Origin: Tachypleus tridentatus
Taxonomy: Eukaryota; Arthropoda; Merostomata; Xiphosura; Limulidae
DNA: 64,000 nt
Assembly (NCBI RefSeq): GCF_004210375.1
Contig: NC_134828.1
Location: forward strand, 25,102,400 to 25,166,399
Direction of reading: 5' to 3'
Shown here: in pieces, positions 21,551 through 49,952 of the stretch
How positions within the stretch are numbered: position 1 is the first letter of the stretch
Layout: each line of letters begins with the position of its first letter
Position numbers and translations under genes: made by a program
The notes under the pieces: model-generated
Database searches by the model: none
Seen by the model: the letters and a program-made list of their open reading frames with translations, nothing else
Told to the model about the DNA's origin: nothing

Positions 21551-22090
21551 CTAACTAGGCTCACGATTCTGTGACAGTAGCGTCAGGATCTGTTCGAGTT
21601 TTAAGTACCTGTCTTTTGAAAAGGCTTTTGCCCCTTTACTTCCCCAAAGAAACTTTAAATGAAATTCGGTTCTGAACAAATCCAGCAACTGATCGTCGTA
21701 TTTCACGTTTTCAGTAAGGGTTTCACACTTTTTTTGATACTTATGGAGTTCTTGGACTATCGTTCTACCCGTCTCCAAATGGTTCAGTAACATTTGAAGA
21801 CCATAGTCTGCAGTGGTGTGTTCCCATGGCAATAGTGGACTGAGTACTGGCTCAGCTTCTTTGCTATTGGTTTCGATTTTTTCAGATTTATCAATTTGCT
21901 TTATCATTTCTAGATGGCGCTGCAAAATAGAGATCAAGCAAACCAGATACGGAATGCAAGAGTTTGAAGCTTCGGTTTCAGAATTTATTTCAAGAGATTT
22001 TAAAAGTGGACGCATTTTACTTTCGTAGGTGAAAGCATTCTCTGTAAAGTTTTGACGTACTAATAACCACGTATCCTGTAATCGGGATAC
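21551..22090 (-). CDS. NSP gene exon 9, end of Cdc25-like domain and stop
   Basis: Acceptor TTTTTTCCCTAG, stop TAG at 21551-21553; 179 residues. VSRLQDTW, LRPLLKSLE-like sequence, NHLETGRTI, FRTEFHLKFLWGSKGAK and LEQILTLLSQ match the end of BCAR3/SH2D3C as I remember it. Vertebrate relatives end a few residues later (EL-type tail), so the C-terminus is complete. Confidence 0.95.
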   Translation of the reverse strand, partial: VSRLQDTWLLVRQNFTENAFTYESKMRPLLKSLEINSETEASNSCIPYLVCLISILQRHLEMIKQIDKSEKIETNSKEAEPVLSPLLPWEHTTADYGLQMLLNHLETGRTIVQELHKYQKKCETLTENVKYDDQLLDLFRTEFHLKFLWGSKGAKAFSKDRYLKLEQILTLLSQNREPS

Positions 22091-25000
22091 CTAGGGAAAA
22101 AAGAAAAAGATAGAAATTTATATACAATTTTATATTAGTATATATAATATGCGACAGATGGCGGCACTAAAAACAAAAGCATTTTGTAAAATAATAAGTA
22201 AAATCTTACTATTAAATAACAATTTCACTTCAAAATATTCCGAGTATGAATACTAACATTGCTCAAAAAAACAACAACAACTACAACAACCTTCATAAAA
22301 GAAGTGTGTAAAAGTTTTTGCTTTGAGCTAAAAGTTTCACAATGAGCAGTCTACACTCTCCACCGCGGAGAATTGAACTCTGGATTTTAGTAACACAAGT
22401 TCTTAAACTTACTGCCGCCCAGTGAAACAGTGGTATGTCTGCAGGCTCGCATCACTAAGAACTGGGTTTCAGTACCCGTGGTGGGCAGAACAGAGTGCTT
22501 ATTTCAAAACAGTCACTTAAACTTACCACTAATCCACCGGCGAACAGGCAGGATTAAACTTAATATCATGAATATACTTCTAGTTCTCACGTTTATATTG
22601 TTTGAACACTAAATACAAACTCTCCAGAGGCCACTCGCAAATGTCTTGTAAAGAAATATCCATTCTTTTTTGAAATAATCTAATAATTAGGAAGATTTAC
22701 TTACAATTTACAGGTCGCGGGATCGAAAATCGACGAACATGCTCACCCTTTTTAGACGTAAAGGGAATATGATGTGGTGATGATAGAGAGCAGCCCAAGG
22801 GTTGGTGTTGAACAACTGTCTTTTTCTCTGGCCTATCACTTCAAAATTAAGGGTGACTAGCACTTGTGTGGCTTTGCGCAAAAATCACACACACTCACCT
22901 TTCTGAATTATATTCAAAATTGCTTATAACAAAACTGAACATTTAAATCTAAATATTCACAAGCATTAGGATTGATATCTTTTACAACAACTCCCAATGG
23001 CTCAGCAAAAATTCCGAAAGCTAAATATTTGATTTCTTTATCCACAGTGGGCACAGCACAGACAGTTCATTATGTAGTTTTGCGCTTAACCATAAACAAC
23101 TTTTATAACGTTCACTAAATTCAATTTTTATTTACCTGTTCATTATAATAACTCGTATCAAAGTTATTATTTGAAGATCCAGCTAGCTTCAGATTAAAGA
23201 TAAACAGAAAATAAACATTTATTACAACTGATTTTTCTGTTTACGCTGTAGTTCTAAATTAGTGGTCATACACTTTATATACTTTGTATAGCTTTATTAC
23301 TTTCTCTACATGTTTGTTATCGTTGACGGCCTGGCATAAGGGCGTTCAGCTAGTAACTTGCTGGTAGCGGGTTCGAATCCCAGATCCACTAAATAAGTTC
23401 GCCCTTTCAGCCGTGGAGGCGTTATAATATTGCGGTCGATCCCACTATTCGTTGGTAAAAGTGTAGCCCAAACGTTTGTACCGCGGTGGGTGGTGATGAC
23501 TTGCTGCCTTCCCTTTAGCCTTTTCACTGCTAAATTAGGGACAAGCTCATGCAGAAAGCCCTTGTGTAATTTACGCGAATTTCCAAACAAACCAAACCAT
23601 TTCTCCGGTCTTGGCTGGTGCTCCATCAGTTGTCACACCAATTTCGTGAAATCCAATGAAACACTACTACACAGTCGTACTGTCTCCTCGAATTGAGCAC
23701 ACCCAGTTGTCTGTCCCTTCACGGAACCCATGCCGATTAGTTCCTCTGCGATATAAAACGATGACGACACACCACGAACAAATACTAGTACCTTTGCTGT
23801 TGAACAGATGTCATTCGACTCGTCTGCTGCCAAAGAGAAGTAGACAAAGTTGGCTGCTTTGTTTGTAAGCTGCCTTGTCACGTCTGCTGAGAGGTGTGAA
23901 ATTCTTCGTTGAACTGTCATACGATTCAAAGCCACCATCTGTAGCTTGCGAACTGCTTCCGGACACAATGCAGTAATCATACATTGTTTGACAAAATCAC
24001 CATCACTGACCTCACATGCTGCACCTAAATCTGCTGATTGCTTTGAGAAAACGTTCTGCTGGTGATTCAGCGACCGCCGCAGAGATTCAATTGTTCGTTC
24101 ATCACCGACAACGTTTGGAAATCTTTATGCTTCGACTCATAATGACGCTTTATATTGGATACCTTCGCCACTGCTACTGTTGAATGACACAGCAGACAAA
24201 TCACGTTCTTCTGTTGTTGAACAAAACAGTATTGCGCAGTCCAATCATCATGAAACTGCCGGTTTTCGTCGTCAACTTTTTTTTTACGATTAGCTGCCAT
24301 TTTTGTTACGAAATAATATCAAAATAGGGCTCGTAAGTAAATCTCGAAGAACAATTGAAACGCGTGAGATTTCGTAATTACGGAAATATTACGTCATTGC
24401 GCCAATGATTAAATGCCTATGCATTTACGAGATTCGCTTATTAAATTTTCTTTATCGCTCAACACAAATATGGAACCATCCAGTATCTAATCTAATGCAT
24501 ATTCTTCTGTAGCGCTTAACCTTCGCGCGGGCGCGAACTCTCTGTTTGACTTTCCCATTGGACATCGCGGGCCACTCGGCGACTCGTTGCGGGCCGGACT
24601 TTGAGCACCACTGTGACTAGAGGGTAGCCCACAGAGATTATACTTCCGCCACGCAGCGTTAAGTATATTCGCTTTTCAAAAAAAAACAACACGAAAATGT
24701 GCCCGTATGCCCGTCGTTACCAACGGACAAGGGTCATTTCTGGAAGAACAATGAGACATAATACTTTAAATATGTCAACAAAGTTTCATCAAAATCATAT
24801 TGCTTTTGACTGAGTTACAGCGTAAGAACATTGCAAAAAATCGCCTTCTTCCTAAGAGATAGGAACAAATTTCTTTGGATATTCGTGACCTTGCCCCTCC
24901 AAAAACTAACTACTTCTAAGCTGCATCATGGTCCAAATGTATGCTAACTTTCATCGAAAGCCATTAAGTCGTTTTGAAGAAAGCTTGCTGGGAAATACAG

Positions 25001-28000
25001 TCAGAAGTGAAAACCTATCCTTTCTTAGCCGCAGAGGTAGTTTTACTCGTCCAAATGATAAGAGAAATATATATATTCACCAATTTACTCAAAACAGTAT
25101 TGGTTTCATTTTATGACTAAATGATCTTTACATCTACAAAGAGTAGAGACTTTATCACGTGTTACAGTGCCTGTGTTGAATCCTTGCCTTTTGAGGGATG
25201 TAGTTCTTTAAAGTTCTAACCAGCCATGATTATGGCAGCTGATTTAATTATCACTAAAAATAAATGGCTATGAAAGAAAACATTAAAGTACCTGTGGTAG
25301 TGAGAGACCTTTCATGACCCCTGAAAACCCATAGAGATTCCCTAAAGATGTCTTGGAATTGACTGCTACTTCGATCCACTTACTCACCAGCTGAGCTCTT
25401 TCCAGTGGTTCTTCAATGGTTAAGACTGTTGCTGCTACAAGGTATTTCGTGCATTCAAATCTGTATGGAAAATCGATTTTCAAAATGTGCAACTTAAAAT
25501 ATATATCTGTTAAACAGTGCCGATATCTTAATACCTTTTTAAAATTACAGATATTTACGCTGTGTATATAATAACCAGTTTTAAGAACTTATAATAATTT
25601 TAATCTGTTTTATGTTGATTCTTTTTGTCAGTTTGTATGAGTATATTTTTAGTCTAATAAAGTGATGTTCGTTTGTTTGTTTGGAAATAAGCGCAAATCA
25701 ACGCAATACGTTATCTGTGCTCTGCCTACCACAGGTATTGAAAGTCGGTTTCCAGCGTTAAATTTTACAGACATACTCATGCGCTACTTGGGGGTTAAAG
25801 TCATGCTTAAAAAAGATAGTAACTAAACTAATAAGTGGAAACTGTTTAAAAAAAGAACAAAAAATAATGGAAATGCTAAGAATATTTTAACTAAAAATTT
25901 AGTATTCTTGTCGATACATTTAGCCTGGCATGGCCAGGTGGTTAAGGCACTCGACTCGTAATTCAAGGGTCGCGGGTTCAAATCCCCGTCGCACCAAATA
26001 TGCTCGCACTTTCAGCCGTGGAACGTTATAATGTGATGGTCGATCCCACTATTCCTTGGTAAAAGAGTAGCCCAAGAGTTGGCGGTGGGTGGTAATGACT
26101 AGCTGCCTTCCCTCTAGTCTTACACTCCTAAATTAAGGACAGCTAGCGCAGATAGCCCTCGTGTAGCTTTGCGCGAAATTCAAAACAAATCAAACCAAAC
26201 ATTTATTGCTGTGTAATGACCTATTTCTGAAAAAATCGCAAATCCTTACCTTTCTAGGATATCTTTTCGTAACTGTTCTCCTTGGGGTAAGGTCAAGAGT
26301 TCCAAGCCATTTTTGACCCCTAATCCAAGATCGTGGTTTCCAGTATATTTAAATACATCAAAGTCATTCTTACTAAGGTGAATAGCCAGTAGCTTTGGTC
26401 CATTTTCCTTTAACAAAGAGGTTATTTTGGCTTTTACTGAATTATCAAGTGGTTTATTTTCAGAAGGTAAGAGAACAGTGGAGAATGTTGAGAGACAAAA
26501 CGTGGAAGGAGGTTTCATGTCTGGTATAGTAAATTTTCTAATTTCAATAGTGTTTTTAATGTTACTACCTTTTTCATCCTGGATGATTTTATTGGGACAT
26601 TTTATTCCATCTTCATCATCGTTGGAGAGTTTCTTAGGCGTAAGAGGGGGCACAGCATTAACAGGTTTTCCAGTCTGTTGGCCTGGGTCTGTGGTATACA
26701 TACTAATGGGTTTCTCAGTGTGATGAGAAACTTCCGTTTCCGCGTTTTTCAGTTTCGAAAGTAAAACGGGTTTGGCTGGTAGCGTTTGAAACTTCTTATC
26801 TGTCGTTAGGACACCTTTTTCAAAATAATTGTCAGAGATTTGTTGCGAAAATATTCTCGGATTTTGAGTATATTTGATGGACGGAATTCGACTAGGCTTA
26901 GGAGGAGGTTTATCATTACTGGATAAGTCCCGTTTTGGATTTGACAGAGAACACTCAGCTGAACTAACGTTGAGAGTATTACAAATCCCTGATGTACAAG
27001 CAGGTGAGAGAATTCCTGTTGGTCTGTTCTGTGGCTGTTCTTTATTTGACCCATGTTGCCTGGTTTTGGCGTCTTCAGTGTCCGGGATACTGGGAAGACT
27101 CAATGTCTGCTCAGATTTAGTTGGTCCACGATGAGAATAACTGGAAGCCAAAGAACAAAGATCAACAGGTGCACTTTGGTGTTTATCTAGTGGAGCTTTT
27201 TTAGGAGGTAAACGTGGAGCGTTATTAGAATTCTGGTACTCAGGTTGGGGCTGCTGGTACAGTTTTTCACGACTTTGAGCTGATAGTACAGGATGTGCAT
27301 TTTCTGAAGTCCTAGCTACCGGATGGATGAGCACTGCATTTAAAGACGACGACAAAACTGTTTTGTTCTCCATTAGGTAAGTTACTAGTTCAGTAATGGA
27401 GTTGTAATTTTTATCAGCAAACTGGTACACGAGCCTTTGTTGATGTTGGACCTGTGAAAATATATGCACGTTGATTATTTAATCTATATATTATTCAGCT
27501 AATCTATCATAAAAATCCACGTTTTTAATGTGATATCTCCTAAAATGTAGTCAACGATACGACACTCACACCTAGTTAATGCGTATAAACCATTCCTATT
27601 CACTTCTTCATAATTTGTCATTTGAAAGAAATACTAACAAAGAATGAGACGTTTTAAAATTATGCAGGTGCGCAAGTCATATTTATTTTGGCGCAACACA
27701 ATCTCAATACCTTTTTTAAAACTGGTTATAAGTATCAACCACGTACTCTTTTTTTTTCACAAGTTGATGCGTTTTAAATTTCACCTAGTTCATGTCAGAC
27801 TTGTACGTGGCTGATATGTGTTTGTTTATACAGTAAGGCTAACCATGCGACAATAATGGTTAAAGAATAAAAAAATAAAATGTAACCTTCTCAATGACGA
27901 AGTGGAGTGGATGGTCATTCCAACGACAGGTTAAAACGAAACTTCCATCTCGAGAGGTTTGGTCTCGAACAAGGAAATCTCCATCCTCACAGGTCAGCTG

Positions 28001-31000
28001 TTCTGCTCTGTGGCGTGAAATTGACCCATGGTACCAGGTACAGTTATGGAGACAGTCGTTTCTGACGTTATAGTCTGAAGCGACACCCGTGTGTGACCTT
28101 CCAGTATCCCGTACGTCATCAAGGTTCTCCTTCAGAGGTGAAAAGAAGGGGCCGTCATTTAGTCATTCTGAAATCTGGTTTAATAAGAGTAAGAGGGCTG
28201 TTCAAAAAATACGCGGACTGACGTCATAAAACAAAATGTACTTTATTTAGAAGTTACAGGTCTGGGACCCCTTCAAACTACTCTCCTCCCCAACGCACAC
28301 ACTTATCCCAACGGTGTTTCCACTTGTTGAAACAGTCCTGGTACGCTTCTTTTGTAATGTCCTCCAGCTCCTTCGTCGCATTTGCGTTAATCTCGGGAAT
28401 CGTCTCAAATCTTCTTCCTTTCAAGGGTCTTTTGAGTTTGGGGAACAAGAAAAAATCGCAAGGAGCAAGGTCAGGTGAGTAGGGGGGTGGGGAAGAACAG
28501 TGATCGAGTGTTTGGCCAAAAAGTCACGAGTTCTGAGGCACAAATTTCGCAGCAACGCGGTGCATCTTCAATTTTTCGGTCAAAATCTTGTAACAAGATC
28601 CAACTGATATCCCACACTCTTCAGCAAGCTCCCTGACAGTCAGACGTCGAGTTGCCCTCACCAGGGTGTTGATTTTGTCGACGTGTGGGTCGTCAGTTGA
28701 CGTGGAAGGACGTCCAGGACGCTCATCATCTTCAATGGACTCTCGACCATCCTTAAAACGTTCATGCCACTTGAAACATGCTGTAGGCTTCATAGCAACA
28801 TCACCGTAAGCCGTGTTAAGCATAACAAAAGTTTCAGTCGCAGATTTTCCAAGTTTAACACAAAATTTCACAGCAAGTCGTTGCTCCTTCAGGTGATTCA
28901 TTCTGAAATCCGCCAAACGAAAAAATCGCACTTCACTTAAAACCGCGTAGCTAATACACAAATGAAGATATCTGCAATCGGGAAATGGCGTCGTAATCAG
29001 CTGATCTGTGCGAATCTAGCGAAACCAAGCGGATTCCCCTGGAACCAAGTGGAGCCGCGCAATTCAAACAGTCCGCGTATTTTTTGAACAGACCTCGTAT
29101 AGCCCAAAAGTCAAATTCCGTAAAACAAAAACATTAAGCCTTATTTTTATCGTTGAAATTAATATCACCTTCCCTTTTGTGCAAGCAATCGATAGAATTG
29201 AGACATTTGATCAAAACAATACAATAAATATATATTCCTCAAATTTCAAGTTAATTCTCTTTCAAAATATTAATTTTCTGTAACTTTTTGTCTATTTTAT
29301 CTTTATTAATAAATTTTAAAATTAATCATTTCATTGTCAGTATATTTTTGGAATTTTTTTCTTACTTCTTGCAAACTTATTTAATTATTTAGAGGCGTGG
29401 GGTGGGAGAGAGACGAACTCCTGGATACAGTTGTTGAGTTTTCCGGAAAAACTGAATGGCTTAAGCCACCGGAAAGTCTGTGGACTTACAACGCTGAAAG
29501 TCAGGTTTCGAAACTTGCGGGCTCAGAACACAGAGAGCCGAATGTGCAACTTTGAGCCTAATGACAAATCTACCGGATATTTTATTTTGCTTCAAGTAAT
29601 TGCCATTCTATAACTATAAATCTCACACAAAACTATTGACTTGTAACTAAGTTCTTGTCGTAACTTCCAAGACACACAGGACCAGTGCTTCTTAACTCCG
29701 GTTGCAAAAGACGCGAGAGTATGAGAATAATTACCTATTCTCAGTCACAGATTAGCTTCCAACTAACAGGTGGTACCATTCTTACAGCCATGTAGACTGG
29801 AACAAGCGGACTGAAGTGAATTGCTCAAGACATGCAGAGTTCTAGCCTCAAACTCACTAATCCACTCTTCCAAACTTAATGCACGAACATATAATGTGAG
29901 AAAAAATGTTTCGTTCAAACGAAATTGGTTATTGTATTCTATCGTCTTAATAACTGAAATTACAATTTTCAACATGAAAGGCACCGCGCGAGTTAAATGG
30001 CCAGTGACCCTTAAGATTCAGTAGTTTTCGGCTACTGACCACAAGAAAAGCAGTCGACGGCATAAAACATCTGTATGCCTCCGAGTCCAATAATAGGATC
30101 GGACTGTATCTTTTATAACGCAACCACACCTCAAAGTGCAGAATATGTTCGTTGATATCACATCTCCAGTCTCGGACTCTTCAATCTGCTAACCACAAGG
30201 TTACCACTGGCTCCTTATCGCCTACAGACAACACATTAACATAACAGAATCAAAGTTCAAAAACAAACGGAAACACTAGATAACCGTTATCACAGATCTA
30301 GGTTATTGTTTTGATTGTTTGTTTTTGAATTTCGCGCAAAGCTACTCGAGGGCTATCTGTGCTAGCCGTCCTTAATTTAGCAGTGTATTGTTTGTTTGTT
30401 TTGGAATTTCGCACAAAGCTACTCGAGGGCTATCTGTGCTAGCCGTCCCTAATTTAGCAGTGTAAGACTAGAGGGAAGGCAGCTAGTCATCACCACCCAC
30501 CGCCAACTCTTGGGCTACTCTTTTACCAACGAAAAGTGGGATTGACCGTCACGTTATGACGCCCCCACGGCTGGGAGGGCGAGCATGTTTGGCGCGACTC
30601 GGGCGTGAACCCGCAACCCTCAGATTACGAGTCGCACGCCTTAACGCGCTTGGCCATGCCGGGCCCAAGTTAGGTTATATCAACCATTCCTACGTAAAGT
30701 GGTAAATATTTGTTGTAACTCACAAATCTGACGAAGTTCAGGAGACTTACAACACTAAAATGTGATGTTCAATTCACCAAGGTGAATAGGTTGTAGGCAG
30801 CGTAATGTATAGCTTTTGCTTAAAAAGCACCACATCAGATAACTGGGGGAGGGTGTTACTGATAACTAAATCTTACAAACAAAGTTATAAATTACTGAAA
30901 ACATGACCGTATTCCGAGTGATAAGACACCACGGACCATCCTTTAAGACTAAAAGCACCCAGTTATGAACAGAATCAACAAATTGGTTTTCAAAATTGCA

Positions 31001-34000: not shown

Positions 34001-37000
34001 CAATTGTCTTTATCCTAACAATATTTCACCCATGTCGTTTTTTCTTAACATGAGCATTACATTACAATAAGTACCTCTTAAAATATCCTCCTAACACCCT
34101 AAAAAAAAACAAATTGTGTACCTATGATCCAAGCACGTAAACTTGTCAAAAGGCTTAATGTTGTACATCCGTCATAGTTAATAAATACAATATACTGAAA
34201 AAAAAAACACACCAAAAGATGGCAGAAACCACCTTTGCTTGATAATAACAACTTACCGAAGATGTCCCTGAAGTGTTGGCGTAGACGACCTCTTTATTTT
34301 CTGTTGTCGTGGTTGTCACCAGAGGGACTCTGAAAGCATTGACGGTTTAGTTAACTGAAATCTGTTACTGATATTTATATTACATTAGGCCTAAAGTTCA
34401 GTGATTATTACTGTTATGTGATCATATTACTTATTCCAAACTTTATACACAGTGACGTAAATCAATACCGCCTGTATATATTTCGCTCGACCTCTGGCAC
34501 CTGATATGATAAACAGTGAAATCAAAGTGCACTGTGGGTAATGTTCTTACTACAGACATCTAAGAAGTAGGCGTAAAGCTACTCGTTCGAGATTACTGTA
34601 TATATTTTCACTGGAACACTAAATATTATCGAGGGAATACACTATGTACCTTAAAACAATGGGTGCAAAAAATGTACTGAAGTAATAAAATACAGGTGGC
34701 GTTAAAAGAGTAGAGACAGTGTGTTGTCTCTGGTACACACAAAGTTAAACATCCATAAGAAGCAAATAGATCTACTTTTGTTCCTACTCAACTGGTCTTG
34801 TAAATACTTTTAGGATATAAAACTAAAAAGTGAATTTTTGTATATTAAATACTTAAAAGCATATTGCAGAGTTGTTTTCGTTGATGTTGTTGTTCTAAAA
34901 TTCTAGAAGACCCTGTGTTCTATTTATTTTAACGCTAAAGTCCTTTTATTTTCCTTTCATAATAACTCATAACAAACAACGTTTGAAATCAGACGTATAT
35001 TTCTTAGTTGTTGGTAATATTTACAACAGATGTAAACAGATCGTAGAGTATAAGCAGAGGTTTGAGTCCACCCAAACAAATCCCCCGGACACATTACCGA
35101 GTAGTACAATGAATAAACTCTTCAACATCTCCCTTTCTTCAGCTCCTAATTCTCACCTACGTAACAGTCAGAACCTCCCATACAAATAAAAAGGAACTCT
35201 CAAGAAAGCATCTTCTCATAACGTCTCAAACAAAAAAATATTTTCACTAGTCAAACACTTGTTTCTTTCATTGTCTAGGTAATTTGGAATTATGTACTAC
35301 CACAATTAATGGTATTTTCCGTTCAGACTTTCCAAAGCTTACTACTATAAAGTTTTAAGTAAGTAATGAAATGTTAAAATACTTATTTTATATTGTATAT
35401 CTTTAGATGGGACAAGGTCAGGGTTAACCACGTGCTGTTTATCAATAAATGTTGCATTAAATGATTTGACGAATACATTCTCACTTTATATTTCGGATTG
35501 AAATATTAGTTTATTTGGTTGTATAAGGGAGCATTTTTTGCCATCTCCATTGATCTGTTCGTTTCTATTTTAAAATATGTTATATTTTATCCTTTGAAAA
35601 TTAAATTTTAGCGAGACACTAAAAAATGTTTAAAAAATCAAAAATCACCATTCGATTTTTTTCATAAAACTAATGTTCATTTTGCATTTTTAAGTGTGCG
35701 ACAAAAACCAACACAAAAACAACACATACCGATCAACGTGAGAGAACAGGTTTAACATGGTAAAAAAAATAATTTACCCATAATACACTATGTCTTGTCG
35801 CTCGGCGATTGCCTTTAGACACCATACAAAAGAGCTAACGTAAGAAAAGTCAGAAGGAAAACAGACTGTACTATTTAATTAAAAACTTCTTTAGTGTACG
35901 TAACTTATTTATTTATAAAATTATCTTTAAAATATACCTCAAATAAATAATATATTCTTACAACATTTAGCTTATAGCTAAAACAAAATTTGTTGGTTTA
36001 AACCTAAAGTCACATTGGACTATCTTCTGTGTTCATCATGGACAATTGAACCTTTCCTTTTAGCGTTTCAAGTCCATAAAAACTTACCACTGTCCCCAAC
36101 GAGGAACTGAAAGAGAGTACACTTTTATAGTTCAAATATTGGCCACAGTCAGTAATTTCTGTTAAAAATATAGTTTTCTCAGTATTAACTTACTGAAAAT
36201 TATTTTTGTAATTAGCCAAAAAAAAAAAAATCCAAAAAGATGCTCAATCAAAAATTGGTTTTAAGCTTTAATGTTCGAGTAACTATATTTAAATTTCCGA
36301 ACTATCAGGGGGGGGTTCTAACCAAAAGGGAAATAAATCCGGGTCCAAACATATATTGTAGCAGATTCACTGTTATAAATTTATTTTAATATCTACGTTT
36401 GTTTCAGTTTAACCCACGTAACGTATATTGTTAAATGTGTTCTGGGCAAGTCCCGTCTGTTCTCTAAATTTATAGAAGATTCTCAAGTGTAAGAATCAAC
36501 AATATACATGTTTTACGAAAACACTAGCGTATCTTCGAATATTGTTGGACCAACTGAACTTCCGAAAATTTCGCTTGAAAGTTTTTAAATCGACGCGCCA
36601 AGAGGCAGTAATAAAATATTGTTTGGTAGCTACAGTCAGTATACTATAAGCCTCTGAAGCTATAATTGTGATAAACACTTAACTGATCGGAAAACCACAG
36701 ATATTTGACGAGAAACGTTTATAAATTTCGAAAATCACGAACCGTTCAACTTCACAGAACTAAACATTGGACGTTATTATTTCCGCGAAACCATCGCATA
36801 ACTTTAGCAGAAAAAACTCACGTGCGAAGAATAGAGCTAGCTAGCATTCCCGTTAAGTGAAGTGTATCTGTGTATTAATATAAAGCAATTTGCTCGTCGT
36901 GAACCTTGACCGTTGATAAATTATTTAATTCCAGACCAGACAGAAGACTGAATTCTGTTTGTGAGAAAGAAAACTGTGTTTATTAATCTTGTTGGCAAAT

Positions 37001-40000
37001 ATAAAATTCATAGATGTCTAAATTCAATTAACTTCCAAATTAAAAACTCCAACTATTTAAAATTGTAATACGTAACACAATAAATCGGAGACTCGTCCGA
37101 GATACGTTATAATATGCAACAATATGATCTCTCTTGTACAAGTACATTTCTGAAAATTTCCATTATGTTCTTTCAGAGTTCCCCAGCGGCTCAGCGGTAA
37201 CTTGAAACCTTAAAAACAGGGTTTAGATTCCCGTGGTTGGCACTGCACCGACAGCCCATCGTATCGCTTTTTTTTTGACACAAGAAAAACAAAGAAACCA
37301 GTATTTTTGGAATATGTATACATAATCATATATATACAACTTACTTCCAAACTGTATAAAGGGATTGACTGTTATTCTTATAACCCACCCGCAGGTTAAA
37401 GTGCAGAAAATATTTTACAATATCGCCAGTTCTGAAATTCAGCGCAGATAACCCTCGTGAAGTTTGGCACGAAATTCAAACCAAACCGAAATTTAGAACT
37501 CCGTCACAGAACAACTACGCCCCCCCCCTTCCGTTAATTTAAAGAAAAGAACAAAAAGTAAAAAGTTTCATAACGAAGGTTAATTCAATTACAACAACAA
37601 AGAGGATTGGCTACCTATATGGCTACTAGTTCTATGGAATAATATGCGTACCTCACGGACTCGTTGGATATTTGAAAAGATCCTTTGTCTGAACAATACT
37701 CAGAGGAACTTTCCGTATTGAGTGGACAATTTTCTGATCCTTTAACAGTAGGGGGATTTTTAACTTCTTTTATAACACTAACGCTATCCGGGCTAGTCTT
37801 GGCTGTGGTCCCCAAATCGACAGAATCTACAACATTCGTTCTTTCACAGGGCTTTTTTGAAAGGTTTGCGTTGAATATCTGTTGTTCTTTTTCAATATTT
37901 CCTCTGACCGATAAATTCTTCCTCGGCAAAGGAGGTACACTGTTGTTGATTACCTGTTGCTGCTGTTGTACATCTTCCAACTGTTTACTACTCGAAATTT
38001 TTCTTGGTAAAGAGGGCGCTTTATTTTCCGATGTCTGAAATTTGACCACAACCCCTCTCTCTACACTCAAAGAGGTCTTCAGGGGCAAAGAAGGAGCCGC
38101 AGTGGGTTGATCCACGTTGTTATTTACACCGAGTAAACTATCAGAAGATTTCCTGGTCAGGAAAGGAACAGTATCACAAGATGTCTGTTTGTCCTCTCCG
38201 ACTGTGCTATTGGAAGATTTTTTAGGGAGAGACGGAAGGTTGGAGTAGGTTACGCACGAGTTTTGTTCAACCACGTGTCTTGTCACATTATCAAGAGGAG
38301 GTCTGGATAATAAGGCGATACGTCCGTTTTCAAGTTTTTCTTCGCTAGAGGTTGCTTCTTCCGTGCCTGTTGAAGGTTTCCTGGATAAAGAAAATGAATG
38401 GATCACCGCTTGGTTACCTTCCTTTGTCGAATTCCACGAAGCTCTGTTTTTACATGTATTAGACGTCCAGCTCTCCCTGGGGCTGCTGTCGCAAGACCGA
38501 CTTTTTCTAATACTACCTCTCGGTGCCCCAGTTTTATTTCGATGACCTAGATAGAAAAAAAAATGAAAATTATATCGGTCATTTTGATACACATACTTTT
38601 GGTTCTCTTGACCTCACACTGAACGTAAAAAAACTCAGTTTAAGCAGTTTAGGAGTTTAAAAAAATCAAAACCTTCGGAACAATGTTGGTTTTAAAAAGT
38701 TAGATTTAAAAAAAATGTTCGTTTGTTGAGAGAAATAATACTGAGACTAAATAAGCCTGGAACAACCTGGTGGAAGCAAGTTCGAATGCCGTCACCGAAC
38801 ATGCACGCCCTTTCAGCTTTCGGGACATTATTACGTTAAAATCAATCCAACTTTTCTTTAGTAAAAAAAAAAAAAAAACAGCCCAAAGAATTAGCTAGCC
38901 ATCCCTAATTTAGCAATGGAAGACCTACAGGGAAGGCAACTAGTCATTACAATCTACCGCCAGCTCTTGGGCTATTCTTTTACAAACGAATAGTGGGATT
39001 GAACGTAACATTATAACGCTCCCACAGCTGAAAAGGTGAGCATGTTTGTTGCGACGGGGTTTCGAATCCGCGACCCTCAGATTACGATTCAAGCGCCACA
39101 ACCATTTGGCTACGCCGGGCCTAGCAGTTTGTGGTTAATATTCGTCTCCTTTCTATACTAGCGCTTTTAAATCATGGATGATTAACTCAGGTTATTGTCG
39201 TGAAACTTTTCGCGATACTTGAAAAAATAATAATAAAAAAATTGAAAGCGTGTGTAATCTTTAACTTGAAGGGCTATTCACAGCTGTTCTTTAGGAGGTA
39301 CTTTAAGAAACTCAAAACCTTTTTAAAACATATTGTAATGTCTTCACGTAACTAAGCGCTTCTTCTTGACGTACTGTATTTTTCGTTCAATCACAATAAT
39401 TACCATTTACGTTGTATTGCTTCTCCGAAAGGGGGCTGAAGGCTGCCTGGAAAAGACATCTGTTTTAATCACTTCTACCATTATACATTAGTAGTAATAG
39501 TGGTGGTAGTTGTCTGTGTTGGTCAGTCAGCCAGTAGACACTAAAATAACGTTACATAAAGGACGCTTAACGTTGCGATTTGTCCTGTCGTGAAATCAAT
39601 ACAATGTGCGCGCGCCATCAATCACGAGAACTGTGCTCTCTGTAGGCTACAACGCAGCGTGACTTATGAACTTCAAAAGCAAGAAATAAAAGTATTTTTA
39701 ATATTCATTTTGGTTGTATTTACTCTTTGAACAGAATGTTTTCGGGTGCCTGCGGAAAGTACATCTAGTTATTGAAAATTATTCTAACACCCAACGTATC
39801 TGCTGAGCCCATCAAGGGGAATCGAACCATTGATTTTAGCGTTGTAAATCCGTAGAATTACCGCTGTACTAGCGGGGTCTGTAATCATCGACGACGTACA
39901 GCTAAACTTAGCGAGTTTAAAACTATCCCATGTGTTGTTCCTTATATTAACACTTAAAAATACAATAGATGCAAAGTTTGGTACTGCAGCCATAAACACA

Positions 40001-43000: not shown

Positions 43001-46000
43001 ACGTTAATAATACTACAGTATTAAACAGCTGCAAGCAAAACGTAAAAAACTTTTAACAGACTTGAAAACCAGTGGGTTTTTTTTATATTAGTGTGATGAT
43101 TAAATTACATCAATGTAATAAATGAAACTGGAGAGTGCTATGTTTCAAGAGCAGATAAATTAGACCAAAATTAAAAAAAAAAAACATTTTTATTTCTTGC
43201 TTTTGAAGTTCACATGTTGTTGCGTTGTAACCTACAGAGTACATAATTCTTCTCATGATTGATGGCACGCGCACGTTTTACTGACGTCACGACAGTAGAA
43301 ATAGCAAAATTAAGCATCCTTTATGCGAGGTCATTTTAGTGTCTACTGACTGACTGACAACAGCTACTACCATTATTAGTATTACTAATGTATAATGGTA
43401 CGAGTGGTTAAAACAGATGTGTCCTTCTGGCAGCCTTCGACCCCCTTTCGGGAAAATTAGTTATGAATTCTCAATAAGTTAGGCCTACGAAAATACTGGC
43501 ATACTAATCAGTGATGTCGAGAAAACCCACTTGTAAAGAAATATATATACGTAAAAACGGCTCGTTTGGGTTGAGAAAAGTTTTTACGTAGAGGAGCGAA
43601 CAATGTTTCGACCTTCTTCGGTCATCGTTGTCTTTGTGAACCTGACAATGACCGAAGAAGGTCAAAACGTTGTTCACTCCTCTACGTAAAAACATTTCTC
43701 AACCCAAACGAGCCATTTTTACATATATATTGGCATACTAGTTTCAAATTCAAAGATCAAGGTTATGTACTTCAAAAATTTCATGCGCAATACAGTGTGC
43801 GTAAACAAGTATATATATGTTCATATGTAAAGATATAAACTAATGTATCACAAATTATCTGAATATATACTTACGTAGCATAGCAACAGAAACGGCTGAC
43901 TGAACAGTGAAACAATAATAAATCAGAACTGGAATGTTCAATTGATCAAAATTAGTTTATTTCTTACAAAAGTTTGTTTCCTTAGATGTATATCGACACT
44001 TAACATCTGTTTTTGTATTAATCTGAGTAAAAATATGATATTTTGTCGTTGTTTTTATGGGAAAGATTGTGATACGTTAACCGTGATTTACTTATGAATT
44101 TTATTACATTTATTTGCAAGTAACATTGAGTAATGTGGGTGTTTCAATACAAGTGATATTGCTGTATAGATTGGTATTTGTAGTAGAAATCTGTTAAAAA
44201 GTACTGTGTCAGTTTATTGCACACTTGGTTGTCAGAATATGTTTTTGATCATATTGCTACTTATGTTGATAATTCTACTAGGAATATGTTAATCCCTGTG
44301 TCAGTTATCAAACGTGCAGCTTAAATGTAAGAGTTGAAATCTGTCATCTCCCTTAAACAGTGAGCACAATATAAGCGATGAATTGGTTATAAATATCACG
44401 TTACAGTCAATTATCATAATACGTAGTTCTCGTCCGCCCAGAAAATGCGCGCGCATCTTACTATCTAAATGCGCATGCGCCAACAAAATTTCAACTGAAG
44501 TGGGCAAAAGGAAGAAGTATAACTTCAGATATTTTGTGCAACACATGAAAGTTTTGAGAAAGCACTAATTTTAAGTCGAAAAATAACATTATAAGTTTAT
44601 TTACTTTTAATAATAAGCGTAGTAGAAATGTATCTCGGAACGACTGGCATAGGTATTAACACTTTTATTGATAAGCAGATTTCGACCTTCCTAGGTCATC
44701 TTCAGATTAACCTGAAGATCAATAAAAGTGTTGATACCCATACCAGCCGTTCTGAGATGCATCTTCATTCCAAGTAGGTTTCTCGTCATCAAGAAGCAGA
44801 GTAGAGTTTAGGCCTAACTAAAGTAAAGCAATAAATGTACAAAAAAATTACTGTGTTCATTTCTCTCTGTTTCTCGTATAGACCGTATTAAATAAAAGTT
44901 TAATTAATGTTAGGTCTAAGGCAAATGGTCTTGGATATTTCAGTGTATACGATTAGAATTATTATGTACTATTCTAGAAGTCCTGTACTTAAGGAGTACT
45001 GTTGTGATAAGGACAGTAACTTGACCACAAAAAATTTAAGGGTGTCTGCTAGTCAAATATAAAACTTCCAATAAAAGTTATTAAATTGTGTTGAAAAAAA
45101 CAAACAAATCTTACCTTTTTCATACTTATCACGGAGAATGACCAGAGATGTGGCAATGATAGCTCGGTGAGAGCCATTTTTTATTCCAAGGTCCTTTAAG
45201 TCACGCTCTGACAATGACAGCATCTCCTACACGAAAAGACAGTACATGAATTTCATAAAACTTTTATTGGTGTTTTGTTGTTTTTTTCAGTTTGAAACTG
45301 GTATATAAATTACAGAAAAATATTTTTTTTCGAATACAGTAAAAACTACACTAGGATTATCTGTGCTAGCCACTTCTAATTTTTAAAGAGATAAAAGTGA
45401 AAGAGAGGTAGACAGTCCACACCACACACTACTGCGGTAATCGAATAGTGAGATTTGACCGTCACTCTTATAACGCAATTTTGGCCCAAATTGCAGAGAG
45501 CGAATATTGCGCATGTCTAGGGTGAGAGAATAAAAACGAAATTCACGAGCTGAATTAACTTTGTGTATAAATACAGCACTTCGACAGAAACAAAATATTT
45601 ATTTAGTTACTTTAATGTACTTCTCTTTACATACGTGTATGTGTGTATACACATACACAAATAGACGGCTTTACTTACAATTAAACTACCACGTGACATA
45701 GCCAAGATTCAAACTACGTCATCAGTCTTTTACAGGATACTAGTAATTACTACACAGAAGTGTTCTGAAGTCCCGTCCCTCTGAACACTTTGAACGAAAC
45801 TAGGCGTTTTAACATCAACTGTAAGGAAGTAACTGAATACTTAATATACAACGAATTTACGTCAGCGGTGTGAACGTACATTCTTTCAGATACGATTTAT
45901 GTATCAGCACTGATTTACACTAGTTTAAGGTATATTTCAACTTCATACTTCTTAATCAGTGTTCATCGGAGAGTGACTGGCCTATTGATTTCTTTCGACC

Positions 46001-46746
46001 TTCGCCAAAGTCAAATACAACATTCGAGGGCATCACGTTCAAAACAACATCCGGAAATTAGGACGTTAATAAGGAAATCGTTCAGAAACAATAGTTGTTT
46101 TACTTGTATAAAAACACATTTCTTCGTAGTAGCTTTAAATTAAACAAGTTTAGCCTCTTCAATGTTTTTGTTATGTGAAAGATTTGATTCAGCAGAGGGA
46201 CCTATCCACAAACTTAAAGTTTTTACTGGAATCGCAAGTTCTTGCCTTCGTGTTCGCTTGTAAATGTGGCTTGACATAGCCTGGCGAGTCGGACACTCGG
46301 CTTGTATTACGCGGATCACGGGTTTGAAATACGTCAACAAACACGCTCGCTCTTTTAGCAGAAGAGGCATCGCAATGTCACGGTCAATCCTGCTATTCGA
46401 TTGTAATAGTCCAAGAGTTAGCGATAGGTGGTGTTGACTACCTCCATTTCCTCTGGTCTATCGCTTTTAAATTAGTAATGACTGGAACAGCTAGCTCTCG
46501 AGTAGTTTGCACAGAATTCAACACTAAATAAATGAAAACCGATATAGGTTGTTATGGAAATACTGACAGAAGAAGGGGTGTATATCAAGTTTCCTTGTAA
46601 TTCACTAGTTAAGGAAGTAGGGTTCTAAATTTACGAAAATTTCAAACCTCAACTCCACGAAACTTCTGGAACAAGTAGAGGTAGTTGTCCAGCTCCAAGT
46701 GTTTCAACCACTCACTAACGTCCAGATGAAGCTTTCCAGTGGTCAT
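21551..46746 (-). CDS. NSP-family adaptor (BCAR3/SH2D3-like) with N-terminal SAM domain
   Basis: Eight coding exons (46746-46648, 45226-45115, 38546-37652, 34329-34257, 28129-27887, 27451-26250, 25460-25292, 22090-21551) total 3333 nt: 1110 residues plus stop. Order: SAM ~9-70; Ser/Pro-rich region with PxxPxK motifs near 175, 222, 248 and 275; SH2 ~425-522 (WYHG, FLVRD with the phosphotyrosine-binding Arg448); linker with KPPPKPSRIP (~655-664); Cdc25-like domain ~801-1105 (NKPLDNS, GLELLTLPQGEQLR, GNLYGFSGVMKGL, FLWGSKGA, LTLLSQ). In vertebrate NSP proteins this last domain is folded like a Ras exchange factor but binds CAS scaffolds instead, linking receptor and integrin signals to Rap/Rac and adhesion. 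I expect a cytoplasmic adaptor. Whether it corresponds to BCAR3, SH2D3A or SH2D3C cannot be settled here, since those are vertebrate paralogues. The SAM domain is not part of the vertebrate proteins as I know them. Confidence 0.93.
22325..22414 (-). mobile_element. short SINE (family D), diverged
   Basis: Reverse copy: GAGCTAAAAGTTTCACAATG, CCACCGCGGAGAATTGAACT, ACTTACTGCCG. It abuts a + strand copy at 22416, forming a head-to-head pair. Confidence 0.6.
22416..22510 (+). mobile_element. short SINE (family D)
   Basis: CCCAGTGAAACAGTGGTATG, GGGTTTCAGTACCCGTGG, TGGGCAGAACAGAGTGC. The tail is missing. Confidence 0.75.
22700..22895 (+). mobile_element. diverged SINE (family A/B), head truncated
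   Basis: It starts at the B-box region (GGTCGCGGGATCGAAAATC), then ACATGCTCACCCTTTTTAGA, GCAGCCCAAGGGTTGG, TTAAGGGTGACTAGC and GTGTGGCTTTGCGCAAAAAT. Confidence 0.7.
23020..23100 (+). mobile_element. short SINE fragment (family D)
   Basis: CCACAGTGGGCACAGCACAG and TTATGTAGTTTTGCGCTTAA match the body and tail of family D; the head is degraded. Confidence 0.5.
23328..23600 (+). mobile_element. SINE (family A) inserted in a hAT transposon
   Basis: Head CGGCCTGGCATAAGGGCG, B box GGGTTCGAATCCC, body complete, tail CCAAACAAACCAAACC ending at the hAT coding remnant. The hAT sequence stops here, which suggests this insertion or a linked deletion removed its 3' half. Confidence 0.88.
23601..24613 (-). 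pseudogene. hAT transposase relic (BED finger plus start of catalytic domain)
   Basis: On the - strand the element begins at 24613 with the hAT-like terminus CAGTGGTGCTCAAAGTCCGG. From the ATG at 24300 it encodes a BED-type zinc finger (ICLLC, then KRHYESKH) of the ZBED5/GTF2IRD2-like hAT group. The frame then shifts near 24060. The next frame carries FSLAADESND (first catalytic Asp region) and VFVRGV. A further shift near 23640 is needed to read VTTDGAPAKTG (second catalytic Asp). The C-terminal dimerisation region is missing. It is a dead transposon in NSP intron 8, not a host gene. Confidence 0.88.
25292..25460 (-). CDS. NSP gene exon 8, Cdc25-like domain
   Basis: Acceptor CCATACAG, donor CAG|GTACTT, 169 nt. 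It begins with one base that completes the Arg codon split from exon 7 and ends in phase 0. ECTKYLVAATV, RAQLVSKWIEVA and GNLYGFSGVMKGLSLPQ align with the middle of the BCAR3 domain. Confidence 0.95.
25672..25795 (-). mobile_element. short SINE (family D)
   Basis: Reverse copy: tail GTTTGTTTGTTTGG, AAATAAGCGCAAATCAACGC, TGTGCTCTGCCTACCACAGG, AGTCGGTTTCCAGCG, then a degraded head ending ACTTGGGGG. Confidence 0.75.
25921..26200 (+). mobile_element. SINE (family A), full length and well preserved
   Basis: Head GCCTGGCATGGCCAGGTGG, B box GGGTTCAAATCCC, full body, tail CAAAACAAATCAAACC. It sits about 50 bases downstream of the exon 7 donor, in NSP intron 7. Confidence 0.93.
26250..27451 (-). CDS. 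NSP gene exon 7: end of SH2, Pro-rich linker, start of Cdc25-like domain
   Basis: Acceptor TTTTCACAG, donor AG|GTAAGG, 1202 nt, phase 0 in, two bases out. It opens with the end of the SH2 domain (VYQFADKNYNSITELVTYL, ending IHPVART). A ~275-residue low-complexity linker follows, with RLPPKKAP and KPPPKPSRIP; the latter resembles KPPPKPCKVP of BCAR3 as I remember it. It closes with the first helices of the Cdc25-like domain (LPSENKPLDNSV to GEQLRKDILER). Two long open frames on the + strand (26427-26723, 26874-27134) are shadows of this exon. Confidence 0.95.
27887..28129 (-). CDS. NSP gene exon 6, SH2 domain core
   Basis: The acceptor CACCTCTGAAG follows a C/T-rich tract; the donor is the weak AAG|GTTACA. 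243 nt, phase 0 on both sides. It encodes CTWYHGSISRHRAEQL, GDFLVRD (the Arg that holds phosphotyrosine), SFVLTCRWND and HFVIEK. A good branch-site match (TGACTAAAT on the - strand) lies about 28 nt before the acceptor. Confidence 0.94.
28192..29097 (-). mobile_element. internally deleted mariner transposon, 906 bp
   Basis: Near-perfect terminal inverted repeats (CTGTTCAAAAAATACGCGG at both ends, in opposite senses) with TA target duplications at 28190-28191 and 29098-29099. On the - strand the frame from 28961 encodes the N-terminal helix-turn-helix half of a mariner transposase (CFKWHERFKDGRESIEDDER and GRPSTSTDD). It then breaks near 28525 and resumes in another frame with YSPDLAPCDFFLF, which contains the third catalytic Asp, and an early stop. 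The region with the first two catalytic residues is deleted, so it cannot encode active enzyme. It lies in NSP intron 5, 63 nt upstream of the SH2 exon. Confidence 0.95.
29455..29580 (+). mobile_element. short SINE (family D), diverged
   Basis: AAAGTCTGTGGACTTACAAC, CAGGTTTCGAAACTTGCGGG, CTCAGAACACAGAGAGCC. The tail is lost. Confidence 0.55.
30312..30387 (-). mobile_element. truncated SINE tail fragment (family A)
   Basis: Reverse fragment TGTTTGTTTTTGAATTTCGC to TTAATTTAGCAGTGTA. It stops abruptly where the next, complete copy begins with its own TTGTTTGTTTG tail, so the 76-bp 3' end is repeated in tandem. Confidence 0.88.
30388..30665 (-). mobile_element. SINE (family A), full length
   Basis: Reverse copy with complete body and head (CTTGGCCATGCCGGGCC). 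It is the same CGCGCTTGGCC head variant as at 4581. It sits in NSP intron 5. Confidence 0.93.
31455..31548 (+). mobile_element. short SINE fragment (family D)
   Basis: TCCTGTGGGTTAACAGGG head remnant, TTTCGATACCCGCGAAGAGC, ATGTAGCCCATTGTGTTGGC. It is directly followed by a reverse family A copy. Confidence 0.6.
31558..31838 (-). mobile_element. SINE (family A), full length
   Basis: Reverse copy: GATTGTTTGTTTGTTTTGG tail, full body, GGGGATTCGAACCCGCG, head ending GGCCATGCCGGGC. Confidence 0.93.
31965..31998. repeat. GTT/GCT trinucleotide microsatellite
   Basis: A run of GTTGTTGTTGTT passing into GCTGCTGCTGCTGCC, intronic. Confidence 0.9.
32046..32275. repeat. 85-88-bp tandem repeat, 2.7 copies
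   Basis: Units begin at 32046, 32134 and 32219. Each carries TACATCTAGCCCCATTTTT (or a close variant), GGGGCGTATTTCAGCG and, in the first two units, TATTTATCCATTGTTCACAG. Units 2 and 3 are almost identical, while unit 1 is diverged. Confidence 0.93.
33072..33186 (-). mobile_element. short SINE (family D)
   Basis: Reverse copy: GAAATTAAGCACAAAGCTAT, TCTGTGCTCTGCCCATCACG, GAAACCCGGTTTCTAGCGG, ending GTGCCACTGGGG. Confidence 0.85.
33608..33852 (-). mobile_element. diverged SINE (family B)
   Basis: Reverse copy: CTTGTTTGTTGATTTCCGCG, AGTGAGATTTGACCATCACT, CTTGTAACGTACCCACG, GTCGCGAACCTCGGACAC, head ending GACCAATGGGCAGCGC. Confidence 0.75.
34257..34329 (-). CDS. NSP gene exon 5 (73-nt exon)
   Basis: Acceptor AATGCTTTCAG, donor TCG|GTAAGT. 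Only one frame is open, and it is the frame required by exon 4: one base completes the split Arg codon, then VPLVTTTTTENKEVVYANTS and GTSS, ending in phase 0. It joins the long Ser/Pro-rich exon to the SH2 exon. EVVYANT contains a Tyr-x-Asn sequence of the kind that Grb2-type SH2 domains bind when phosphorylated. Confidence 0.85.
36000..36108 (-). mobile_element. short SINE (family D), old
   Basis: Reverse copy: AAACCTAAAGTCACATTGGA, CTATCTTCTGTGTTCATCAT, ACTGTCCCCAACGAGG. Heavily mutated. Confidence 0.5.
37180..37290 (+). mobile_element. short SINE (family D)
   Basis: TCCCCAGCGGCTCAGCGGTA, AGGGTTTAGATTCCCGTGG, GACAGCCCATCGTATCGC, then T- and A-rich sequence. Confidence 0.75.
37652..38546 (-). 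CDS. NSP gene exon 4, Ser/Pro-rich region with tandem SH3-ligand motifs
   Basis: The acceptor ATCTAG adds GT to the G left by exon 3; the donor is GTGAG|GTACGC, leaving two bases. 895 nt, residues ~71-368. A motif of the form [V/A]PxLPxK-x-S recurs every 22-27 residues: PSLPKKSS (175), VPFLTRKSS (197), PSLPLKTS (222), PSLPRKISS (248), PPLPRKN (275). SLSRKPST near 123-130 is a possible degenerate member. These fit the class II SH3-ligand pattern PxxPx[KR], each followed by Ser/Thr next to basic residues. The rest is low complexity (QQQQQ near 264). No folded domain is apparent. Confidence 0.88.
38753..38875 (+). mobile_element. SINE (family A), 3' truncated
   Basis: GCCTGGAACAACCTGGTGG head remnant, AGTTCGAATGCCGTCACCG, ACATGCACGCCCTTTCAGC, ending at a poly(A) run. 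The next copy lies in the opposite orientation. Confidence 0.75.
38876..39122 (-). mobile_element. SINE (family A), tail missing
   Basis: Reverse copy from GCTAGCCATCCCTAATTTAG to CATTTGGCTACGCCGGGCC. It forms a head-out inverted pair with the copy at 38753. Confidence 0.88.
39422..39715 (+). repeat. unclassified ~300-bp interspersed repeat, copy 1
   Basis: It runs from TTCTCCGAAAGGGGGCTGAA to GCAAGAAATAAAAGTATTTT. It matches the reverse complement of 43148-43460 over its whole length (about 80% by eye). Shared blocks include CCATTATACATTAGTA, CAGTAGACACTAAAAT, GCCATCAATCA and GAACTTCAAAAGCAAGAAAT. It has no tRNA-like promoter boxes and no obvious terminal inverted repeats; the A/T-rich end suggests a retroposed element. 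Confidence 0.85.
39789..39877 (-). mobile_element. short SINE (family C), tail missing
   Basis: Reverse copy: TCTGCTGAGCCCATCAAGGG, GAATCGAACCATTGATTTTA, TACCGCTGTACTAGCGGGG. Confidence 0.8.
39995..40212. repeat. degenerate tandem repeat, unit ~43 bp
   Basis: ACACAGAGAT-type blocks followed by TATCTATAG/TATCTACAG-type blocks recur about five times with heavy drift. Confidence 0.6.
42032..42228 (+). mobile_element. SINE (family A), 5' truncated
   Basis: It starts at CACCAAACATGCTCGCCC (no tRNA head) and continues through the body to GTAGCTTTGCGCGAAATTAC. The tail is absent. Confidence 0.88.
43148..43460 (-). repeat. unclassified ~300-bp interspersed repeat, copy 2
   Basis: Reverse orientation relative to the copy at 39422. 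On the + strand it begins after a poly(A) run (AAAAAAAAAACATTTTTATT), i.e. at the element's T-rich end, and finishes at CCCCCTTTCGGGAAAA. A 3.4-kb spacer separates the two copies inside NSP intron 3. Confidence 0.85.
43541..43731. repeat. foldback element A: ~85-bp inverted repeat arms, 22-bp loop
   Basis: Left arm 43541-43625 and right arm 43648-43731 are nearly complementary: TACGTAAAAACGGCTCGTTT pairs with AACGAGCCATTTTTACATAT, and TTCGACCTTCTTCGGTCAT pairs with ATGACCGAAGAAGGTCAAAA. The apex region reads CCTGACAATGACC, then GAAGAAGGTCAAAAC. No coding capacity. Confidence 0.92.
44630..44762. repeat. foldback element B: ~42-bp inverted repeat arms
   Basis: Arms 44630-44672 and 44718-44762 pair (TCGGAACGACTGGCATAGGT with the complement of ACCCATACCAGCCGTTCTGA; ACACTTTTATTGAT with ATCAATAAAAGTGT). 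The loop holds TTTCGACCTTCCTAGGTCAT followed by CTTCAGATTAACCTGAAG, itself a small hairpin. The loop shares its GACC-N6-GGTC core with element A, although the arms are unrelated. Confidence 0.9.
45115..45226 (-). CDS. NSP gene exon 3, second half of SAM domain
   Basis: Acceptor TTTTCGTGTAG, donor AAAG|GTAAGA, 112 nt, phase 0 in, one base out. EMLSLSERDLKDLGIKNGSH and RAIIATSLVILRDKY form the typical end of a SAM domain: the LxLxExDLKxLGI turn, then the long C-terminal helix. Confidence 0.92.
45345..45520 (-). mobile_element. diverged SINE (family B), head missing
   Basis: Reverse fragment: GATTATCTGTGCTAGCCACT, GAATAGTGAGATTTGACCGT, CACTCTTATAACGCAATTTT. It lies about 120 bases upstream of exon 3, in intron 2. 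Confidence 0.65.
46276..46522 (+). mobile_element. diverged SINE (family A)
   Basis: Head TAGCCTGGCGAGTCGGACAC, CACGGGTTTGAAATACG, ACGCTCGCTCTTTTAGCAG, CACGGTCAATCCTGCTATTC, GTCCAAGAGTTAGCG. It lies in NSP intron 2. Confidence 0.8.
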
Positions 46747-46772
46747 AATAAACTCTAAGTCAATGACGGCCT
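46648..46772 (-). CDS. NSP gene exon 2: start codon and first half of SAM domain
   Basis: Acceptor TTTTTCTAG, weak donor GAG|GTTTGA. The first in-frame ATG is at 46746-46744, giving MTTGKLHLDVSEWLKHLELD and NYLYLFQKFRGVE, the first helices of a SAM domain (W at the usual start, then LxNY). The 26 transcribed bases before the ATG, joined to the exon ending at 48589, meet an in-frame TAG without another ATG, so translation most likely starts here. Frame and phase join exactly to exon 3. Confidence 0.88.
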
Positions 46773-48760: not shown

Positions 48761-48970
48761 CACAAGGCGACCACTAGTTACCACCAATGATCACATGAAA
48801 ACAAGAGTGTGACTTCAGTAGTTACCACTTCTGAACCTCGTGTCCTAGTACTGACTTACTTATTCTGGAACTGCAAGCCTCTAGAAACGCGGGAATGAAT
48901 ACCAGTTACTTGTAAAGAATCTAACAGGTGGAGAACGCCTCTATCCACTACTGCCTACTTAGTTAGCCCT

Positions 48971-49037
48971 TGACGTCAGCTGCTACGCCTCAGGCAAGGT
49001 AAGAGCAGGTTGCTACGCTTCCCATGGTAGCAGCAAC
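48971..49037 (-). promoter_or_regulatory. candidate NSP promoter segment with CRE and palindromic motif
   Basis: A perfect CRE palindrome TGACGTCA lies at 48971-48978. At 49009-49037 an imperfect palindrome pairs GTTGCTAC with GTAGCAGCAAC around CCATGG, resembling the X-box bound by RFX factors. The surroundings are more GC-rich than the rest of the window and lie just upstream of the inferred first exon. Confidence 0.35.
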
Positions 49038-49952
49038 ACACAACTTTCTGTGACGCATTAGCGCGTGTCCAAACAAAGTAGTGGTGTCACGGTGGACAAA
49101 ATTAGAGAGTGTCAGTCTCGTGAGCTCGTACGTTACGAGCTGAACTGAGCTCCGATGTATTGTCCTTCGTTTCTTTCCTCTGTGCTGATTCTATTACCGA
49201 CAATCGGACAGACTGTGGTTCGAGACTTGGGTAAACGACCTCTCCAGCGATGTTGCTGCACTCCCCTCCCCCCATTTTTCTATAACTGGCAAGTTCCCGA
49301 CACTGAAACATTTAGCGTTTCTATTAAACTGTTTTTAACTGACTGGTTGTCGTTACATGCGCTTTTATACCAGAGTATCCCAAGAAAACTGTTTATATCC
49401 AGTAATTTATTCTGACCCAACCTTCGTTCAAAGTCTTTGTCCAGATCAAAACAAGCAACAAATTACATTAAGTGTTTTTAACTTCTAAATACAAGCCCCC
49501 ATACTTCGTATGCTGTAAACAAACATTCACTATATAACTGACTGTGGTAAAGAAGACAAGACAGCGAAAACTAAATACAAGTCCACAGTTGTCATGGCAG
49601 ACATTTGCGATATTATTATATAAAACTGACAAAGAGTTTAGTACAGCGACAAGTTTTCTGTTAAAATCATTTTAATTTATAACAAATATTCTCTGTTATC
49701 TTTAAGATTATCGGTAAAAAGTGCTTGAGTTGGTGAACTCCTGTCAACTGACAGTGCTTTATATTGTGTGGACGTTCCTAAAACAAACATTCTTAACAGA
49801 AGATAGTTTCTGTTGTCAATACGTTCCCAAAACGCACTCTTAAACCAACGTAAATTTGTATTATGCGGACGTCACCAAAGTAGACTCTTAATAAACAGTA
49901 GTTTGTATTATAAGGACATCAATAAATTACAAAATGATGTGTGTTTTTTTTT

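Follow-up and report, generated by a model that had tools for sequence, protein, structure and literature searches.

A predicted NSP-family adaptor gene with an amino-terminal SAM domain in the horseshoe crab

The window, the whole stretch of 64,000 nucleotides analysed here (C4:25102400-25166399), probably contains one NSP-family gene whose protein would consist of a SAM domain, a proline-rich linker, an SH2 domain and a Cdc25-like domain. Taken as a whole and together with the mechanism proposed below, this reading explains the sequence best, and we hold it with good confidence. The NSP family comprises BCAR3 (NSP2), SH2D3A (NSP1) and SH2D3C (NSP3, SHEP1 or CHAT), and CG9098 is the NSP gene of Drosophila. 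As in BCAR3, SH2D3A and SH2D3C, the SH2 domain of the window protein is followed by a Cdc25-like domain, and the Leu/Arg stretch that contacts CAS is kept. Unlike the vertebrate NSP proteins, which to our knowledge have no SAM domain, the window protein has one at its amino terminus, and we know of no other NSP protein with a SAM domain. A search of open-licence papers for BCAR3 or SH2D3C with a SAM domain returned no report of the combination. For NSP proteins of invertebrates, a SAM may already be listed by automated annotation.

The gene model was assembled from eight exons on the minus strand of the window. The first half of the SAM is encoded by E1 (46648-46772, 125 nt, phase 1 to 0), which contains an ATG at 46746, and the second half by E2 (45115-45226, 112 nt, phase 0 to 1); both exons are bordered by an AG acceptor and a GT donor. 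The linker exon E3 (37652-38546, 895 nt, phase 1 to 2) has four P..P.[RK] motifs and is followed by the short exon E3b (34257-34329, 73 nt, phase 2 to 0). E3b provides the change of phase between the end of E3 (phase 2) and the beginning of E4 (phase 0), and in all four paralogues described below an exon beginning in phase 0 was found at the E4 position. E4 (27887-28129, 243 nt) encodes the first part of the SH2 domain, and E5 (26250-27451, 1202 nt) encodes its end, a second linker with three P..P.[RK] motifs and the start of the Cdc25-like domain. The middle of this domain lies in E6 (25292-25460, 169 nt), and its C-terminal CAS-binding part, aligned to SH2D3C and BCAR3 chains of the PDB, lies with the stop codon in E7 (21551-22090, 540 nt). 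The phases were compatible at 7 of 7 junctions, and the SAM exons lie on the same strand as the NSP exons and in phase with them, as the earlier note on this DNA had claimed. From the ATG at 46746 to the stop codon the chain is exactly 3333 nt long.

The identity of the domains was tested by profile and structure searches. When the joined translation of E1 and E2 was compared with Pfam, it matched SAM_1 with an E value of 1.5e-10 (41.7 bits, cut-off 23; profile positions 6-60 of 64) and SAM_2 with 4.8e-8 (33.5 bits, cut-off 20.5). With their AG/GT borders, the two exons were thus confirmed to encode the SAM domain that had been proposed for them. E4 matched the Pfam SH2 profile with 5.6e-13 and carries the sequence FLVRD at residue 454, which includes the phosphate-binding FLVR arginine. 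The downstream exons matched RasGEF with 2.1e-5, the match lying in E6, so that the profile comparison suggested earlier was positive for all three domains. The last three exons were also compared with the PDB and matched the Cdc25-type chains of human SH2D3C (4.3e-36) and BCAR3 (2.1e-35), both of which aligned to the window protein as three ordered blocks.

The sequence search of the PDB with the SAM gave 44 distinct sequences at E<=1, headed by the EphA2/SHIP2 SAM at 8.9e-9. With a profile search against solved structures, EphA2 matched at 1.4e-11 and DGK delta at 1.5e-6. The top chain of this profile list is a SHIP2-EphA2 construct, and the better match came from its EphA2 part. The SAM of EphA2 is therefore the best solved match both with the single sequence and with the profile; the likeness is limited to this domain, since the window gene model, unlike EphA2, has no kinase and no membrane part. 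The SAMs of SHIP2, ANKS1, SASH1 and DGK delta were also among the matches, and in these multi-domain signalling proteins the SAM is likewise a docking module. Among proteins of this kind we know of none that combines a SAM with the NSP-type pair of SH2 and Cdc25-like domains.

The 2.167-Gb genome (205 contigs) gave 19 matches to the Pfam family Coagulin, which is not known outside horseshoe crabs, and none of 14 control genomes gave a match; this fits with a horseshoe crab as the source. To find related genes, the genome was searched with E7 and with the SAM. Four NSP loci were found with E7, the window gene (C4), C1, C2 and C10, and a fifth E7 was not found. Compared to the window copy, E7 was 72% identical in C1, 54% in C2 and 51% in C10, and C2 and C10 were 74% identical to each other. 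Since the identities between the pairs were 45-54%, the loci form two pairs, C4 with C1 and C2 with C10, and we infer that the copies are ohnologues. When the window SAM was used as query, 20 matches were obtained at E<=10, of which the eight with E<=0.021 were exons of C4, of C1, of C2 and of a duplicated stretch in C2. SAM exons linked to an NSP gene were thus present at 3 of the 4 loci, and a full exon model was obtained at 2 of the 4.

In C1, the SAM exons are followed downstream by E3, E3b, E4, E5, E6 and E7, all on a single strand. The lengths of E1 (125 nt), E2 (112 nt), E3b (73 nt), E4 (243 nt), E6 (169 nt) and E7 (540 nt) are the same as in the window, whereas E3 has 889 instead of 895 nt and E5 1120 instead of 1202 nt. 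The junction phases equal those of the window from E1 through the start of E5, and the C1 copy of E3b has AG/GT borders. In E3, 109 of 283 aligned residues are identical between the window and C1. The SAM-NSP arrangement is probably real, because the duplicated gene copy keeps it. C1 itself may be decaying or misassembled, because a frameshift lies within the linker of its E5 (C1:172176256-172177375); the later C1 exons are still conserved. The end of E6 in C1 (C1:172177698/172177699) precedes GC instead of GT.

At the C2 locus, the SAM exons have the same phases and the same strand and lie 78 kb upstream of the C2 SH2 exon. No exons joining the SAM to the SH2 domain were found between them, so that C2 supports colinearity only. 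Long tandem-repeat arrays (LGLDDCLSDNNIQ when translated) fill much of this interval, at about C2:74862000-74928000. The SAM stretch is present twice in C2 (C2:74856457 and C2:75319074), about 460 kb apart and 98.3% identical over 4.9 kb, and no E7 was detected near the second copy; this is either a duplication or an assembly duplicate. Between the SH2 exons of C2 and C10 and the DNA upstream of them no conserved linker exons were found. For C10, no SAM was detected within 45 kb upstream of the SH2 exon, nor genome-wide when the window SAM or the C2 SAM was used as query. One SAM-like match upstream of the C10 NSP gene (E 4.5) was rejected, as it adjoins tandem repeats and is without a second SAM exon.

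The comparison of C4 with C1 also allowed us to estimate the selection on the SAM. Over its 69 codons dN was 0.13, with a pN of 0.12 and a pS of 0.77. As a control, the same gene pair gave a dN of 0.14 for E6, 0.18 for E7 and 0.20 for the Cdc25 part of E5, and values of 0.38 and 0.57 were found for the SH2 exon E4 and the linker E3, respectively. By this comparison, the SAM is among the more constrained parts of the gene, with a constraint similar to that of the Cdc25 part. The differences in E1 and E2 fell on codon positions 1, 2 and 3 in the ratio 15/9/36 (chi-square p 4.3e-5). E2 was identical in 36 of 37 residues, with its silent sites saturated, and E1 in 28 of 41. The protein sequence of E3b appears to be under no visible purifying selection (pN 0.34 and pS 0.26 over 24 codons); its borders and length are kept.

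Whether the SAM-NSP architecture is an old one of animals that was lost in vertebrates, or a novelty of the horseshoe crab, is evenly balanced. An old origin is favoured by the paralogues: provided that the SAM exons of C2 are part of its NSP gene, the SAM is older than the separation of the C1/C4 pair from the C2/C10 pair. Against it stands that the comparison is confined to this genome and that the scans of contigs gave no NSP relative. An E7 alignment gave 105 pattern matches in the genome contigs and 30 in the viral contigs, with no NSP relative among them. A SAM alignment gave 57 and 69, respectively. In the genome contigs the latter scan found one SAM-like locus, in a Gammaproteobacteria MAG, which was 43% identical over query residues 20-66, and none of the pattern matches in the viral contigs was a SAM-like locus. 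The bacterial locus was set aside, as a lone bacterial SAM match is uninformative on NSP genes.

A stronger version would be that SAM-SH2-Cdc25 was the original form of the animal NSP proteins, that its EphA2-like SAM directly couples CAS signalling to receptors and scaffolds that carry a SAM, and that vertebrates lost the SAM as C10 apparently did; we put this forward tentatively and regard it as rather doubtful. If the fusion is true, NSP adaptors would once have been able, or would have become able in this lineage, to reach the CAS complex directly by SAM-SAM contact, besides the binding of SH2 to phosphotyrosine. The genome would then offer a natural experiment, with SAM-containing NSP genes (C4, C1 and perhaps C2), C10 without a detectable SAM and several CAS genes, and domain lists that were built on the vertebrate NSP proteins would be incomplete.

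The start of translation was then examined. C1 conserves both the acceptor at 46772 and the reading frame that precedes the ATG at 46746. In the 9 codons that include this ATG, 4.0 of 5.5 silent sites but only 2.0 of 21.5 replacement sites differ between C4 and C1, and the C2 copy of E1 has no Met before the SAM. To judge from this conservation, the true start probably lies upstream, in an earlier coding exon. The 3333-nt chain of the earlier note is thus reproduced in its length, and its start probably has to be moved. A start exon upstream of E1 was looked for and not found. A conserved block was detected upstream of the SAM exon at 48914-49080, which is 74% identical over 168 columns to C1:172155514-172155674. 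On the plus strand it has a word resembling a splice donor, CAAG/GTAAG, and for this reason it may be the first exon of a divergently transcribed gene. As it looks like an exon of the opposite strand, it was rejected as the start exon of E1.

Besides a long form with the SAM, the gene could produce a short form that begins with a different first exon, located in the intron between E2 and E3 or farther downstream. The in-frame Met codons of the window protein are at residues 10 and 44, and the next one is at residue 510. None is in frame in E3, E3b and E4 (residues 80-483), and hence translation of an intact SH2 domain from the window gene would have to begin within the SAM exons, ahead of them, or in an alternative exon that escaped detection. 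This argument is valid for the window gene only, because E3 of C1 has Met codons at residues 119 and 305. Vertebrate SH2D3C has several first exons and the C10 locus is an NSP gene without a detectable SAM, which both fit with two isoforms. No low-copy conserved coding segment was found on the same strand between E2 and E3, which speaks against a conserved first exon there, although a short one would have been missed. We consider two isoforms a serious possibility, but not the favoured one.

For the function of the single SAM-containing protein, we propose that it is an adaptor with three docking surfaces. Its SH2 domain would bind a phosphotyrosine protein, and its Cdc25-like domain would hold a CAS protein; the latter is suggested by the kept Leu/Arg pair and by CAS genes in the genome, which serve as proxies. 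In the PDB alignment, the sequence NHLATAR of BCAR3 stands against NHLETGR of the window protein, with L1045 and R1049. From this alignment, the i,i+4 spacing and the residue numbering of BCAR3, we take these two residues to be the counterparts of 744 and 748 in BCAR3. All four paralogues keep both the L and the R of this HLxxGR stretch. According to PMC8266394, the BCAR3 mutant L744E/R748E fails to bind Cas. With the CAS_C profile, five matches were obtained at four places of the genome, C5:26491666, C7:151110779, C11:51795463 and C12:49866803. The number of these places is the same as that of the NSP loci.

Together, the four P..P.[RK] sites of the E3 linker and the three of the E5 linker give seven, which would be a possible array of SH3 ligands. 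A Y117-type site ahead of the SH2 domain of BCAR3 is described as conserved across vertebrates (PMC8266394). Unlike BCAR3, the window protein has no Y[VI].F site like Y117, and the motif is also absent from the first 483 residues of C1. The Y117-type site is vertebrate knowledge and was not taken as defining the wider NSP family.

The SAM would be the third docking surface, bringing the adaptor to other SAM proteins or joining it with them. The SAM of EphA2 pairs heterotypically, and that of DGK delta forms polymers. Since the EphA2 SAM is the nearest and E2 is nearly invariant while E1 drifts, we favour a one-sided heterotypic SAM-SAM binding via the conserved basic start of the last helix over the formation of a polymer. 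The earlier note had suggested that the SAM could polymerise and give a multivalent CAS-binding scaffold. This was not supported as stated and is unlikely: the polymer-forming SAM of DGK delta is among the matches (1.5e-6), but EphA2 matches better (1.4e-11), and E2, which contains the basic start of the last helix, is nearly fixed (36/37) with a looser E1 (28/41), which hints that mainly one surface matters.

That the window instead contains two adjacent genes, a small SAM-only gene and an NSP gene that begins with an undetected exon of its own, is very improbable: it would fit with the 6.6 kb that separate E2 from E3, with 12 AATAAA words in this interval against about 7.6 expected from the base composition, with a stop about 20 codons into the unspliced reading beyond E2, with C10 lacking a detectable SAM and with the C2 SAM exons lying 78 kb away and having a second copy without a detected E7, but it is opposed by the phase-1 donor of E2, common to C4, C1 and C2, which matches the phase-1 acceptor of E3, common to C4 and C1, by the missing Met codons in E3-E4 of the window gene and by the lack of another conserved coding segment between E2 and E3. 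The AATAAA words and the early stop would also be compatible with a transcript that contains the SAM exons alone.

Some open frames of other character lie among the exons of the single SAM-NSP gene. Two of them are on the minus strand in the intron between E6 and E7, at about 24070-24318 and 23636-24124, and near them a Pfam match to a Spin-doc-type zinc finger was observed, which probably belongs to a transposon-derived gene. Another minus-strand open frame is located just upstream of the SH2 exon at 28281-28523; by its motif, it resembles a piece of a mariner transposase.
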